Shown: piece by piece, positions 8,005 through 63,780 of the stretch
Layout: each line of letters starts with the position of its first letter
Position numbering within the stretch: the first letter of the stretch is position 1
DNA from: Verrucomicrobium sp.
Lineage (GTDB): Bacteria > Verrucomicrobiota > Verrucomicrobiia > Methylacidiphilales > GAS474
NCBI GenBank assembly: GCA_028283855.1
Contig: JAPWJX010000003.1
Span: 1,178,001 to 1,242,000, forward strand
Direction of reading: 5' to 3'
DNA length: 64,000 nt
Position numbers and translations under genes: made by a program
The notes under the pieces: generated by a model
Told to the model about the DNA's origin: nothing
Databases searched by the model: none
What the model saw: the letters and a program-made list of their open reading frames with translations, nothing else

Positions 8005-8046
8005 GCCGCGCCTTTCTCCCTTGGGGGAGAGAGGCGCGGCTTTTTT
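8005..8046 (+). terminator. Rho-independent terminator after the 82-aa orphan
   Basis: A long GC-rich stem, GCCGCGCCTTTCTCCC (8005-8020), a TT loop, and its near-complement at 8023-8040, followed by six Ts (8041-8046). This is one of the few textbook intrinsic terminators in the window. Confidence 0.92.
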
Positions 8047-58810: not shown

Positions 58811-59434
58811 CTAGTAAGCGCGGAACGGGCGTTCCACTGTCCAATCGGTGCCCGTTTTGCCGGTGCTGCGGGTCAGGAGGCGCCCGGCACCGGAGAGTGT
58901 GGTGTGCTTGTTGCCGGTAGGATCGGCCACGGTGGGGCGGGCGTTATCCTTAAAATGGATGTCGATGCTGGCCGTGGGCTGGACGGTGATGTGGGGGGCG
59001 GACTTCTCCTCGCAGGAGACGATGGAAATCGTGTCGGACAGGACGATGCTGGGCTTTGCCTCCCCCTTGGTGACGATATTGGGACGGCGGCTGTAGATGC
59101 TGACTTCCGAAGCCTCCACGACGATCGTGGTTTCCTTCCCCTGTTTGCCGCAAACGGTGATGTCCGGCGCGGCGCCTTCCGTGACGGAGATGAGGGGTTG
59201 GGCGTTGTCCTGAACGTCGACAGTGGCGCGGCCGCCGCCCTGAAGGATGAGAGTCGGCTTGGCGTCCTTTTCGATCACGAAGTTGAGGGAGGAATCCGTA
59301 TGGATCTTCACATCCCCCTGGATGTGGACGAGGGGGGTGGGAATCCGGTTCAGGCGGGCCTGGCCGCGGGCGGTCGTCTGAAGGCGGTCCCAGTCAGCCT
59401 GGGTCTTGAGCGTGATGGAAGGGCGGGACGGCAT
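58811..59434 (-). CDS. Motif-associated beta-repeat protein (207 aa)
   Basis: No family recognised. Residues ~35-180 are a series of short beta strands with a loose repeat of about 16-20 residues, each with an A-x-P-x-I/V core (DAKPTLIL, NAQPLISV, AAPDITV, EAKPSIVL, SAPHITV, NARPTV), which fits a beta-solenoid. Two isolated cysteines (TVCGK, VSCEE). No signal peptide. GAAGGA-like SD (GAAGGAT) touches the ATG, and the AATAGCCGAATTA motif ends only seven bases upstream. Beta-solenoids are common in surface, spike and secreted proteins, but location is not shown here. Confidence 0.75.
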   Translation of the reverse strand: MPSRPSITLKTQADWDRLQTTARGQARLNRIPTPLVHIQGDVKIHTDSSLNFVIEKDAKPTLILQGGGRATVDVQDNAQPLISVTEGAAPDITVCGKQGKETTIVVEASEVSIYSRRPNIVTKGEAKPSIVLSDTISIVSCEEKSAPHITVQPTASIDIHFKDNARPTVADPTGNKHTTLSGAGRLLTRSTGKTGTDWTVERPFRAY

Positions 59435-59490: not shown

Positions 59491-61471
59491 CTAGAGGGTC
59501 TGGGCGACCTTCTCGAGCTGGTAGCACTCGATGACGTCGCCTTCCTCGTATTCGGTGAAATCGCCCAGGCGGATGCCGCACTCCAGGCCGGAGCGGACCT
59601 CGGACGCGTCGTCCTGGAACCGCTTGAGGGTGTGGATGCCGCCGTCGTAGATCGGCTGCTTCTTGCGGATGACGCGGGCGCGGGCGTTGCGGACGATGCG
59701 GCCGGTCTGCACGGCGCAGCCCGCCACGGGATACTTGGAAAGCTCGAAGACCTTCTTGACCAGCGCGGTGCCCAGCTGGGTCTCGCGCAGCTCGGGGTCG
59801 AGGAGGCCCGCCATGGCCTCCTTGATCTGGTCGACCAGCTCGTAAATGATGGAGAAGAGCTTGATCTGAACGCCCTCGCGCTTGGCGGCGTTGGCGGCGG
59901 CGTTGTCGGTCTTCGTGTTGAAGCCGATGACGACGGCGGAGCTGGCGCGGGCCAGGATGACGTCCGATTCGGCGATCGGGCCGACGCCGGTGTGGACGAT
60001 CTCCAGGTCGACTTTCTTGCTGTCGATGTTGCGCAGCTGGCCCACGACGGCCTCGATGGAGCCCTGGACGTCGGCCTTGATGATGAGGTTGAGGGTCTTC
60101 TTCTGCCCGTCGGCGATGGTGTCGAAGAGGTTTTCCAGGGTGACCTTCGGCGCGGCCTCGATCTTCTTGAGGCGGAGGGAGGCGGCGCGCTCCTCGGCGA
60201 TCTCGCGCACCTTCTTGTCGCTGTCCATGGTGACCAGCTCCTCGCCCGGGGAGGGGACGCCGGAGAGGCCGATGACTTTCACGGGGGTGGAAGGGCCGGC
60301 TTCCTTGACGTTCTGGCCCAGGTCGTTGATGAGGGCCTTCACGCGGCCGTAGAAGGGGCCGCAGAGGGCGGGCTCGCCCACCTTCAGGATGCCGTCCTGG
60401 ACGAGGACGGTGGCGGTGGGGCCGCGGCCGACCTCGGTCTGGGCCTCCACGACGCGGGCCTTGGCCTCGCCGCGGAAGTGGGCCTTGAGCTCCATGAGCT
60501 CGGCCTGGAGGGTGATCATCTCCAAAAGTTTGTCGATGCCCGTCCCCTTGGTGGCGGAGACTTCAACGGTGATGGTTTGGCCGCCGTATTCTTCCGGCGC
60601 GAGGCCCTGCTCCTGGAGCTGGCCCTTCACGCGCATGGGGTTGGCGGCGGGGAGGTCGCACTTGTTGATGGCGACGATGATGGGGGCGCCGGCGGCCTTG
60701 GCGTGGCTGATGGCCTCCAGGGTCTGGGGCATGAGCCCGTCGTCCGAGGCGACGACCAGGACGACGATGTCGGTCACGGAGGCGCCGCGCGCGCGCATGG
60801 CGGTGAAGGCGGCGTGGCCCGGGGTGTCGATGAAGGTGATGCCGTGTTCCCCGCGCTTCACGGTGTAGGCGCCGATGTGCTGGGTGATGCCGCCGGCTTA
60901 CGCCCGCGGCGACGCGGGTCTTGCGGATGGCGTCCAGGAGGGAGGTCTTGCCGTGGTCGACGTGGCCCATGAAGGTCACGACGGGGTCGCGGTGCTCCAG
61001 CTTGCGCTCCAGCTCGGCGGCGGGCTTGGGCTTTTCGACGGGCTTGGAGGGGGCGGGCGGATGGGCCACGCGGTCCCGCTTTTCCGTCTGGAAGCTGAAG
61101 CCGAGCTTGGCGCTGACTTTCTTGGCCGATTCCTCGTCCAGGACCTGGGTGAGGGTGGCGAAGATGTTCAGCTCCATCAGGTGGTGGATGAGCTGGAAGG
61201 GCTTGAGGCCGAGGTGGGTGGCCAGATCCTTGACGACGATGGGGCCTTTGATGGCGATCGTCTTGTCCGCCGGGGAGGAGGTGACGTTCCCTTCCGCGGG
61301 GGCGGAGGGGGCGGGTTCAGAAGCCTCGGCGGAGGCGGGCTCGGTCGAGGCGGCCTGCGGGGCCTCCGTCGCCGGGGCCTCAGACGCCTTCGGAGCCGCG
61401 CTCTTTTTGGGAGCGGCGGCTTTGTCGGCGGTCTTCTTGGTCTCGACGGTGGCGGCTTTTTCTTTAGGCAT
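59491..61471 (-). CDS. infB: Translation initiation factor IF-2, with a single-base frameshift in the G domain
   Basis: The GTPase that brings initiator tRNA to the ribosome. From the ATG at 61471 the frame covers a Lys/Ala/Pro-rich N-terminus, the IF2_N-like block, and the G1 box [22 protein letters not shown]; then it shifts. Base 60900 (A on the plus strand) is extra: without it the next residues are [12 protein letters not shown], the invariant continuation, and the frame runs on through [15 protein letters not shown] and NKCDLP to the end at 59491. The corrected protein is ~659 aa. As infB is essential, an assembly or read error is by far the likeliest cause. It follows nusA. Confidence 0.93.
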
Positions 61472-61503: not shown

Positions 61504-62778
61504 TTAGGCGTTCGCGGGCTGGTCGGCCCCGGCCTTGGTCTTCTCGATGGCGGCCTGGCGAATGCCCTTGGCGGCCTCGGGCTCGAGGCCCGGGACGGCG
61601 CCGAGGAAGTCTTCCTCGTCGACCTCCGCGATCGCCTCGACGCTGACGAGGCCGGCGCGGACGATCTGGTCGGCCACGGCCTGCTCGATGGAGAGGGATG
61701 CGGCCAGCTCGCCGGCGGCCTTTGTGATCTGCTCGGCGAAGTTCTCGGCGGCGGTGTGCTCTTTGAGGATGTCGATCTCCCAGCCGGTGATCTTGGTGGC
61801 CAGGCGGGTGTTCTGCCCCTTGCGGCCCAGGGCCAGGGAGTAGTTCTCGCTGTCGACGGTGACCTTCAGGCGGTGGTTGGCCTCGTCGACCTCCAGGCTC
61901 TTCAGCTTGGCGGGCTTGAGGGCCTCCACGGCCAGCTCACGGATGTTGGGGGACCACTTGAAGAGGTCGATCTTCTCGTTGTTCAGCTCGCGGACGATGT
62001 TCTTCACGCGCGCGCCGCGGATGCCGACGCAGGCGCCCACCGGGTCGATCTTCTCGTTGGAGGACCAGACGGCGATCTTCGTGCGGTAGCCGGCCTCGCG
62101 GGCCATGGCCTTGATCTCCACGGTCTTGTCGTTGACCTCGTTGACTTCCAGCTCCAGGAGCTTGCGGACGAAGTTGGGGTGGCTGCGGGAGAGGATGATC
62201 TCCAGGCCGCGCACGCCCTCTTCCACGGCCACGACGTAGGCGCGGATGCGCTCGCCGGGGTTGTATTCTTCCGTGGGGACGCGCTCGCGGGAGGGGAGGA
62301 TGGCCTCGAACTTGCCGAGGTCGACGATGACGTCGCTCCGCTCGAAGCGGCGGACGGTGCCGGTGACGATGGCGCCGGCGCGGTCCTTGAACTCGGAAAA
62401 GATCATCTTCCGCTCGATGCCGCGGAGGGTTTGGTTGATGGTCTGCTTGAAGACCTGGGCGGCGATGCGGCCGAATTCCTTCGGCGTCACCTCCATGTCG
62501 ACGGCGCCGCCGAGCTGGGCTTCCTTGTCGATGTCGCGGGCTTTGAGGAGGGTGATCTGGTCGGCCGGGTTGGTCACCTTTTCCACCACTTCCAGGCGGG
62601 CAAAGGCGCGGAGCTTGCCGCTTTTGGGGTCGATCTCCACGCGGAGATCCTTGGCCGGGCCGAAGCTTTTGCGCGAGGAAGCGAGCAATGCGGCTTGCAT
62701 CGCTTCAATGAGGATCTCCCGTTTGATCCCCTTTTCCTTCTCCATGTATTCCATGATCGCTACAATTTCTTGACTCAT
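61504..62778 (-). CDS. nusA: Transcription termination/antitermination protein NusA
   Basis: 424 aa. N-terminal RNA polymerase-binding domain ([26 protein letters not shown]), S1 domain ([27 protein letters not shown]), KH domains ([50 protein letters not shown]) and a C-terminal acidic region with an HhH-like end ([20 protein letters not shown]). A strong SD, GGAGG, precedes the ATG at 62778. The rimP gene often found upstream is absent; instead an intrinsic terminator lies in the leader. infB follows by 32 bases. Confidence 0.96.
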
Positions 62779-62830
62779 GGTCGCCTCCTTCTTATTGCTT
62801 CTTGCTTCTCTCTCTTTCGGATCCGGAGAC

Positions 62831-62860
62831 AAAAAAGTGGAAACTAGCGAAAGTTTCCAC
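62831..62860 (-). terminator. Intrinsic terminator in the nusA leader (candidate attenuator)
   Basis: On the minus strand: GTGGAAACT (62852-62860), loop TTCGCT, AGTTTCCAC (62837-62845), then six Ts (62836-62831). The 9-bp stem is perfect. No minus-strand gene ends upstream (lpxI runs the other way), and the hairpin lies between a promoter at 62895-62922 and the nusA ATG at 62778. It is therefore in the 5' leader, about 30-60 nt after the expected transcription start. Confidence 0.85.
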
Positions 62861-62894
62861 GGCTCCGAACAAACCGGTGAGCGAAAAGCAAGTG

Positions 62895-62922
62895 ATCCTA
62901 TCAACTTAAGAGAGAGGGTCAA
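62895..62922 (-). promoter_or_regulatory. Candidate promoter of nusA-infB
   Basis: On the minus strand: TTGACC (62917-62922), 16 bases, TAGGAT (62895-62900). This is the best -35 box noticed in the window. Transcription from about 62888 would give a ~110-nt leader containing the terminator at 62831-62860. Confidence 0.6.
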
Positions 62923-62931
62923 GGCCTGAAA

Positions 62932-63780
62932 TTGAATCCCCCCGCCCAAGCTCCTCTGCCGGACCATCTTGGCCTTATCGCCGGGAAGGGGAGCTATCCC
63001 CTGCTGGTCGCCCGGGCCGCCCGGGCGGCGGGCGTGAAGCGCCTTTCCCTTGTTGCCTTCGACCGGGAGACCGATCCCGCCCTCTTTCCCCTGGCCGACG
63101 AGTCCCTCTCCATCCGGGTCGGCGAATTGGGGAAGCTCCTCCGCTTTTGCCGGGACCAGGCGGTCCCCGCGGCCATCATGGCGGGGCAGATCTCCCCCGG
63201 CCACCTCTTTGACCTGAAGCCCGATTGGCGGGCCCTCCTCCTCCTGGCCAAGCTTAAGGAACGCAACGCGGAGACGATCTTCGGCGCCATCGCGGACAAG
63301 CTGGGGGAGGGCGGCACCATCGTCCTGCCCGCCACCACTTTCCTGGAGGATTGCCTGGCCGCTCCCGGCCCTCTGGCCGGTCCCCGCCCGGGCCGCCGCC
63401 AGCGGGAGGACATCGCCTACGGTTTCCGCATCGCCAAGGAGATGGCCCGGCTCGACATCGGCCAGACCGTCGTGGTGAAGCGCGGGACCGTCCTGGCCGT
63501 GGAGGCCTTTGAAGGGACCAACGCCGCCGCCCGCCGCGGCGGGGCGCTGGGCCGGGGCGGCGCGGTCCTGGTCAAGGTGAGCAAGCCGGGGCAGGACTTC
63601 CGCTTCGACGTGCCGGTCGTCGGCCCCCACACCTTTCAGACCGCGCATGAGGCGGGCATCGGCACCATCGCCTGCGAGGCGGGCCGCACCCTTCTTTTGG
63701 AACGGGAGCGGCTGGAGGCCCTGGCCCGGGAGTTTAAAATCTCCCTGGTCGGCGTCAGTCCTTCCGACTCCGCGCTTTAA
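62932..63780 (+). CDS. lpxI: UDP-2,3-diacylglucosamine pyrophosphatase LpxI
   Basis: 282 aa. It cleaves UDP-diacylglucosamine to lipid X in lipid A synthesis, the alternative to LpxH. It has the LpxI (DUF1009) blocks LGLIAGKGSYPLLVARAARAAG, AIMAGQISPGHLFDLKPDWRALLLL, RQREDIAYGFRIAKEMARLDIGQTVVVK and VLAVEAFEGTNAAARRGG. No ATG lies near the start; TTG at 62932 is used. It implies an outer membrane with lipid A. The last 26 bases overlap the acyltransferase gene end to end. Confidence 0.94.
   Translation: MNPPAQAPLPDHLGLIAGKGSYPLLVARAARAAGVKRLSLVAFDRETDPALFPLADESLSIRVGELGKLLRFCRDQAVPAAIMAGQISPGHLFDLKPDWRALLLLAKLKERNAETIFGAIADKLGEGGTIVLPATTFLEDCLAAPGPLAGPRPGRRQREDIAYGFRIAKEMARLDIGQTVVVKRGTVLAVEAFEGTNAAARRGGALGRGGAVLVKVSKPGQDFRFDVPVVGPHTFQTAHEAGIGTIACEAGRTLLLERERLEALAREFKISLVGVSPSDSAL

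Follow-up and report, generated by a model that had tools for sequence, protein, structure and literature searches.

Why does an intrinsic terminator stand between the promoter of nusA and its start codon in this Methylacidiphilales genome? We analysed this leader both within the window, i.e. the whole stretch of 64,000 nucleotides in which it lies, and in the genomes of relatives. The answer that we consider likely is that the leader is an attenuator of nusA-infB, very probably under feedback by NusA, and that it represents the local form of the known rimP-leader switch. The features concerned are the following.

59491 to 61471, minus strand: infB, the next gene of the operon (Pfam), in two overlapping frames in the assembly
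61504 to 62778, minus strand: nusA, 424 residues (Pfam NusA_N, S1 and KH_5, with KH_NusA_C scoring under its curated cut-off)
62784 to 62790, minus strand: Shine-Dalgarno sequence AAGGAGG, from the sequence
62803 to 62829, minus strand: 3' arm of a predicted outer stem, TCTCCGGATCCGAAAGAGAGAGAAGCA, which would form only in read-through RNA
62831 to 62836, minus strand: U-tract UUUUUU, the predicted 3' end of the leader RNA
62837 to 62860, minus strand: terminator hairpin, RNA GUGGAAACU-UUCGCU-AGUUUCCAC, supported by its fold, its conservation in the order and the top match of model R1 (see below) in the genome
62863 to 62890, minus strand: 5' arm of the predicted outer stem, TGCTTTTCGCTC..TTCGGAG (own versus shuffled flanks, p=0.022 for this leader)
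62895 to 62922, minus strand: nusA promoter TTGACC-16-TAGGAT (TTGACC 62922-62917, 16-nt spacer, TAGGAT 62900-62895)
62932 to 63780, plus strand: lpxI, the divergent upstream neighbour (Pfam LpxI_N and LpxI_C)

Promoter, hairpin, T6, Shine-Dalgarno sequence and ATG follow one another on the minus strand in the order given in the original prediction. The hairpin DNA, GTGGAAACT-TTCGCT-AGTTTCCAC (62860-62837), forms nine perfect pairs, four of them G-C, and runs into TTTTTT (62836-62831). Based on the -10 box, the transcription start site is predicted near 62888, and the terminated leader RNA would be ~58 nt long. The segment from the start site to the U-tract folds at -18.8 kcal/mol (z = -3.6), and none of 200 shuffled sequences folded equally well. 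A promoter scan of 4 kb returned a single site, that of nusA, with 0.1 expected from shuffles. A loose terminator scan alone was not significant (5 sites vs 4.4 expected). With strict criteria (stem of at least 8 pairs and T6), the census of both strands of the window gave two sites, whereas Markov shuffles yielded 0.1 on each strand. The other strict terminator is found at 8005-8040 on the plus strand and has a 15-bp stem.

The decisive evidence that the leader hairpin is not a product of chance comes from its conservation. Named relatives place the genome in Methylacidiphilales (Verrucomicrobiota). Of 60 relatives, 57 yielded NusA, and 50 leaders were fetched from nine families of Methylacidiphilales, with NusA identities of 54-84%. 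All 50 harbour a GTGG..CC(A/G)C hairpin with at least six Ts, located 22-70 nt upstream of nusA, so that the check proposed along with the original prediction, conservation of the hairpin in related genomes, came out in its favour. A TTGAC -35 box with a spaced -10 box precedes the hairpin in 49 leaders (TTGACC in 48), and the predicted terminated RNAs measure 48-62 nt across the order. Within the stem, GTGG and CC.C never change, and many relatives carry GUGGG there. Inner stem pairs covary, one of them being A-U in 11 sequences, G-U in nine and G-C in seven. The loop and the unpaired stretches are freely variable. When a covariance model of the order's nusA-leader hairpin, R1, was run on the window's genome, the nusA leader was its only strong match (40.7 bits; next site, 22.8 bits). 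A GAACUC sequence in stem and loop, which we take to resemble the NusA-binding RNA of M. tuberculosis, was set aside, as this likeness is present in only 16 of the 50 cores and absent from the window.

We then turned to the rest of the class, with 60 nusA leaders drawn from 38 further families. In 45 of them, a terminator was detected no more than 150 nt from nusA, as against 13 of 291 background windows, and three further leaders (L094, L096 and L097) have a hairpin with a four-T tail. The stems are mainly of two types, GTGGG..CCCAC (23 leaders) and AAGTCGG..CCGACTT (20 leaders). No terminator was seen in the nusA leaders of families f31, f21, f34, f29 and f49; this type of control is thus dispensable there. 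The nusA terminator is gone from the f31 leaders (L126-L129), most of which retain a promoter-like TTGACC, so that attenuation by NusA may have been lost in this family. In lineages with the AAGTCGG stem (L103, L104, L110, L115, L134, L136 and L151), a second conserved hairpin, GCTGG..CCAGC, is found just ahead of the nusA terminator, and 3' of the U-tract there is often GTTCCCC..GGGG. The scanned representatives of these tandem-hairpin leaders (L103, L110 and L134) matched no Rfam family.

The class-wide consensus, AGUGGG..CCCACU, matches the rimP leaders of Bacilli, the sequences of which read AGTGGG..CCCACTCTTTT. Model R2, for which verrucomicrobial nusA leaders of the GTGGG..CCCAC type were the only input, was run over 30 Bacilli rimP loci. 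The rimP leaders were its best matches, 20 of 30 at E<=0.1 and the best at 1e-5. At E<=1, R2 does not match the window's own leader; the arms of its stem are GUGGAAAC/GUUUCCAC, which by their sequence represent a derived variant that has kept GUGG..CCAC. The Rfam model of the rimP leader, RF01770 (gathering score 47 bits), was above its cut-off in none of 60 genomes and in just one of 14 control genomes; no Methylacidiphilales genome passed it. It seems too narrow for the published rimP-leader motif. A scan of all Rfam families gave no match at the nusA leader.

Naville & Gautheret (2010; PMC2965389) found no attenuator more ubiquitous than the rimP-leader, which in their account has a conserved stem, lacks a general antiterminator and is probably regulated by NusA. 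The leader analysed here shares with it a terminator hairpin and U-tract in the leader of a nusA-infB operon, the lack of a general antiterminator and, at class level as revealed by R2, a G-rich 5' arm and a C-rich 3' arm conserved in sequence. Thus, what defines rimP/nusA leader attenuators in a broad sense is found: a terminator between promoter and first gene, a shared conserved stem (at class level) and no visible antiterminator. It differs in that the element is placed directly on nusA, with rimP not the first gene of the operon and PF02576 undetected. Furthermore, the stem is GUGGAAAC/GUUUCCAC instead of the published GGGc(...)gCCC motif, RF01770 gives no match, and many members have an extra nested outer stem.

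Two other systems invite comparison. According to a review citing earlier work, NusA of B. subtilis stimulates termination in its own 5' leader and thereby regulates itself (PMC12288461). In both cases, the NusA-encoding operon has an intrinsic terminator in its leader; the response to NusA was measured in B. subtilis, whereas here we infer it. In the E. coli metY-rimP-nusA-infB operon, the terminators t1 and t2 are located upstream of rimP, and NusA is reported to repress the operon (PMC6511841). There too, terminators separate the promoter from the nusA operon, but they are arranged in tandem behind a tRNA gene (CCCCGATTTATCGGGG and GGGCTTTAGGCCC) and lack the GUGG stem. In addition, RNA-seq of S. 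agalactiae revealed that two transcripts, one short and one long, share a start at the rimP operon (PMC4448216). The mechanism as such is known already: there is a report of it in B. subtilis, and it has been proposed elsewhere (PMC12288461, PMC2965389, PMC4448216). Which of the two proteins, RimP or NusA, is sensed was a question that the published work on the rimP-leader did not settle (PMC2965389).

The Verrucomicrobiota bear on that question. RimP_N (PF02576) was undetected in the window's genome and in all genomes sampled, i.e. 62 of the order, 141 of the class and 241 of the phylum. The same search scored in ten of the 14 controls; one RimP-like ORF, in an Acholeplasmatales genome (L040), escaped it. 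We discarded the idea of a hidden RimP in Methylacidiphilales, as the 22-70 nt between hairpin and nusA leave no room for a gene and RimP_N was not found in the phylum sample. In an Acholeplasma, the leader precedes rimP, and in phytoplasmas, where RimP_N was not found, a GTGG..CCAC terminator with T6 directly precedes nusA. Since the element is found on nusA where RimP is undetected, both in the Verrucomicrobiota sample and in phytoplasmas, it follows nusA rather than rimP. On these genomic grounds, this association would favour NusA as the sensor. A phylum in which RimP is undetected and the leader is still on nusA, together with the rimP-less phytoplasmas, amounts to a natural experiment pointing to NusA. 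What is new is the lack of detectable RimP in the 241 sampled genomes of the phylum with the element directly on nusA, which bears on the protein sensed. One of the most widespread attenuators is also extended to the Verrucomicrobiota, where Rfam is blind to it.

In the predicted fold, the sequences on either side of the hairpin pair to form an outer stem around both terminator and U-tract. The segments CGGAG and CTCCG, which had been thought to offer an alternative fold, do pair, but as part of this outer stem, which is compatible with both the terminator and the U-tract. Being nested around the terminator, the outer stem is not an antiterminator. No competing antiterminator was found; averaged over 24 leaders, the hairpin was favoured by 9.3 kcal/mol. 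In genus g12, a downstream segment can pair with the 5' arm of the terminator, only after read-through. The sequences of the outer stem are wholly different between families, and compensatory changes are few (1 and 0 pairs in the alignments of two genera). What supports it is a set of swap and shuffle tests, in which the flanks of a leader pair better as they stand than after shuffling, with Fisher p = 2e-6 over 15 genera, a value that includes the kinship among genera, and significantly so for only some genera taken singly. The outer stem is thus well supported, but not proven. It might, tentatively, be a conserved second part of the switch, e.g. a read-through lock or a landing site for NusA or an RNase, a part undescribed for rimP leaders.

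A plausible course of events is as follows. RNA polymerase would start ~28 nt upstream of the hairpin, and the modest, A-U-rich hairpin with its U-tract would stop a fraction of the polymerases, yielding the ~58-nt RNA. NusA is known to assist suboptimal hairpins (PMC8060035); at the RNA exit channel, it would raise the stopped fraction. Abundant NusA would shut down its own operon, and scarce NusA would let more polymerases pass. In the read-through RNA, the outer stem would close around the terminator and leave the Shine-Dalgarno sequence free. The attenuator part of the original prediction is strongly supported by conservation and by sequence in common with rimP-leader attenuators, and its NusA feedback is retained as probable.

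A constitutive attenuator, with a terminator that fixes the read-through ratio of nusA-infB and NusA as no special sensor, is unlikely. In a leader, every intrinsic terminator reduces expression, and it is we who infer a NusA response here, but the order has kept the stem sequence itself (GTGG..CC.C invariant) and not just its pairing, the stem is common to rimP leaders of another phylum, and a response to NusA is known in B. subtilis from the review mentioned above (PMC12288461). It is improbable that the same terminator serves another effector, i.e. a ribosomal protein, NusG, Rho, a small molecule or the translation of a leader peptide. RimP is undetected in the phylum sample, which makes it unlikely as a general effector, and no antiterminator was found, even though the operon also encodes IF2 and most B. 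subtilis terminators are common to NusG and NusA (PMC8060035). As for a leader peptide, the window has no ATG between start site and hairpin and only five of 50 leaders have one; we abandoned this candidate for want of a consistent ATG across the order. The ~58-nt RNA might act in trans as a small RNA, the function of which would explain the conserved stem. The conserved promoter, length (48-62 nt) and stem would suit this role, which we regard as very improbable given the freely varying loop and single-stranded parts, the position ahead of nusA or rimP and the lack of an Rfam match. Lastly, terminators are common between genes, but one serving upstream or antisense transcription is hardly credible here, as lpxI is divergent, leaving no upstream gene in need of it, as originally noted, the plus strand has no T-run after the hairpin, a promoter separates neighbour and hairpin in 49 of 50 genomes, and in other families with the hairpin, lpxI was not found beside nusA.

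For NusA-controlled attenuation, cultured Methylacidiphilum offers a directly testable site. Over residues 1-410, the NusA protein of the window aligns with solved NusA structures. After infB comes a 207-residue ORF (58811-59434, minus strand) without a Pfam match. The two infB frames (60563-61471 and 59491-60861) overlap, with a break in the GTPase domain near 60900. As the gene is essential, an assembly error is more likely than a real frameshift.
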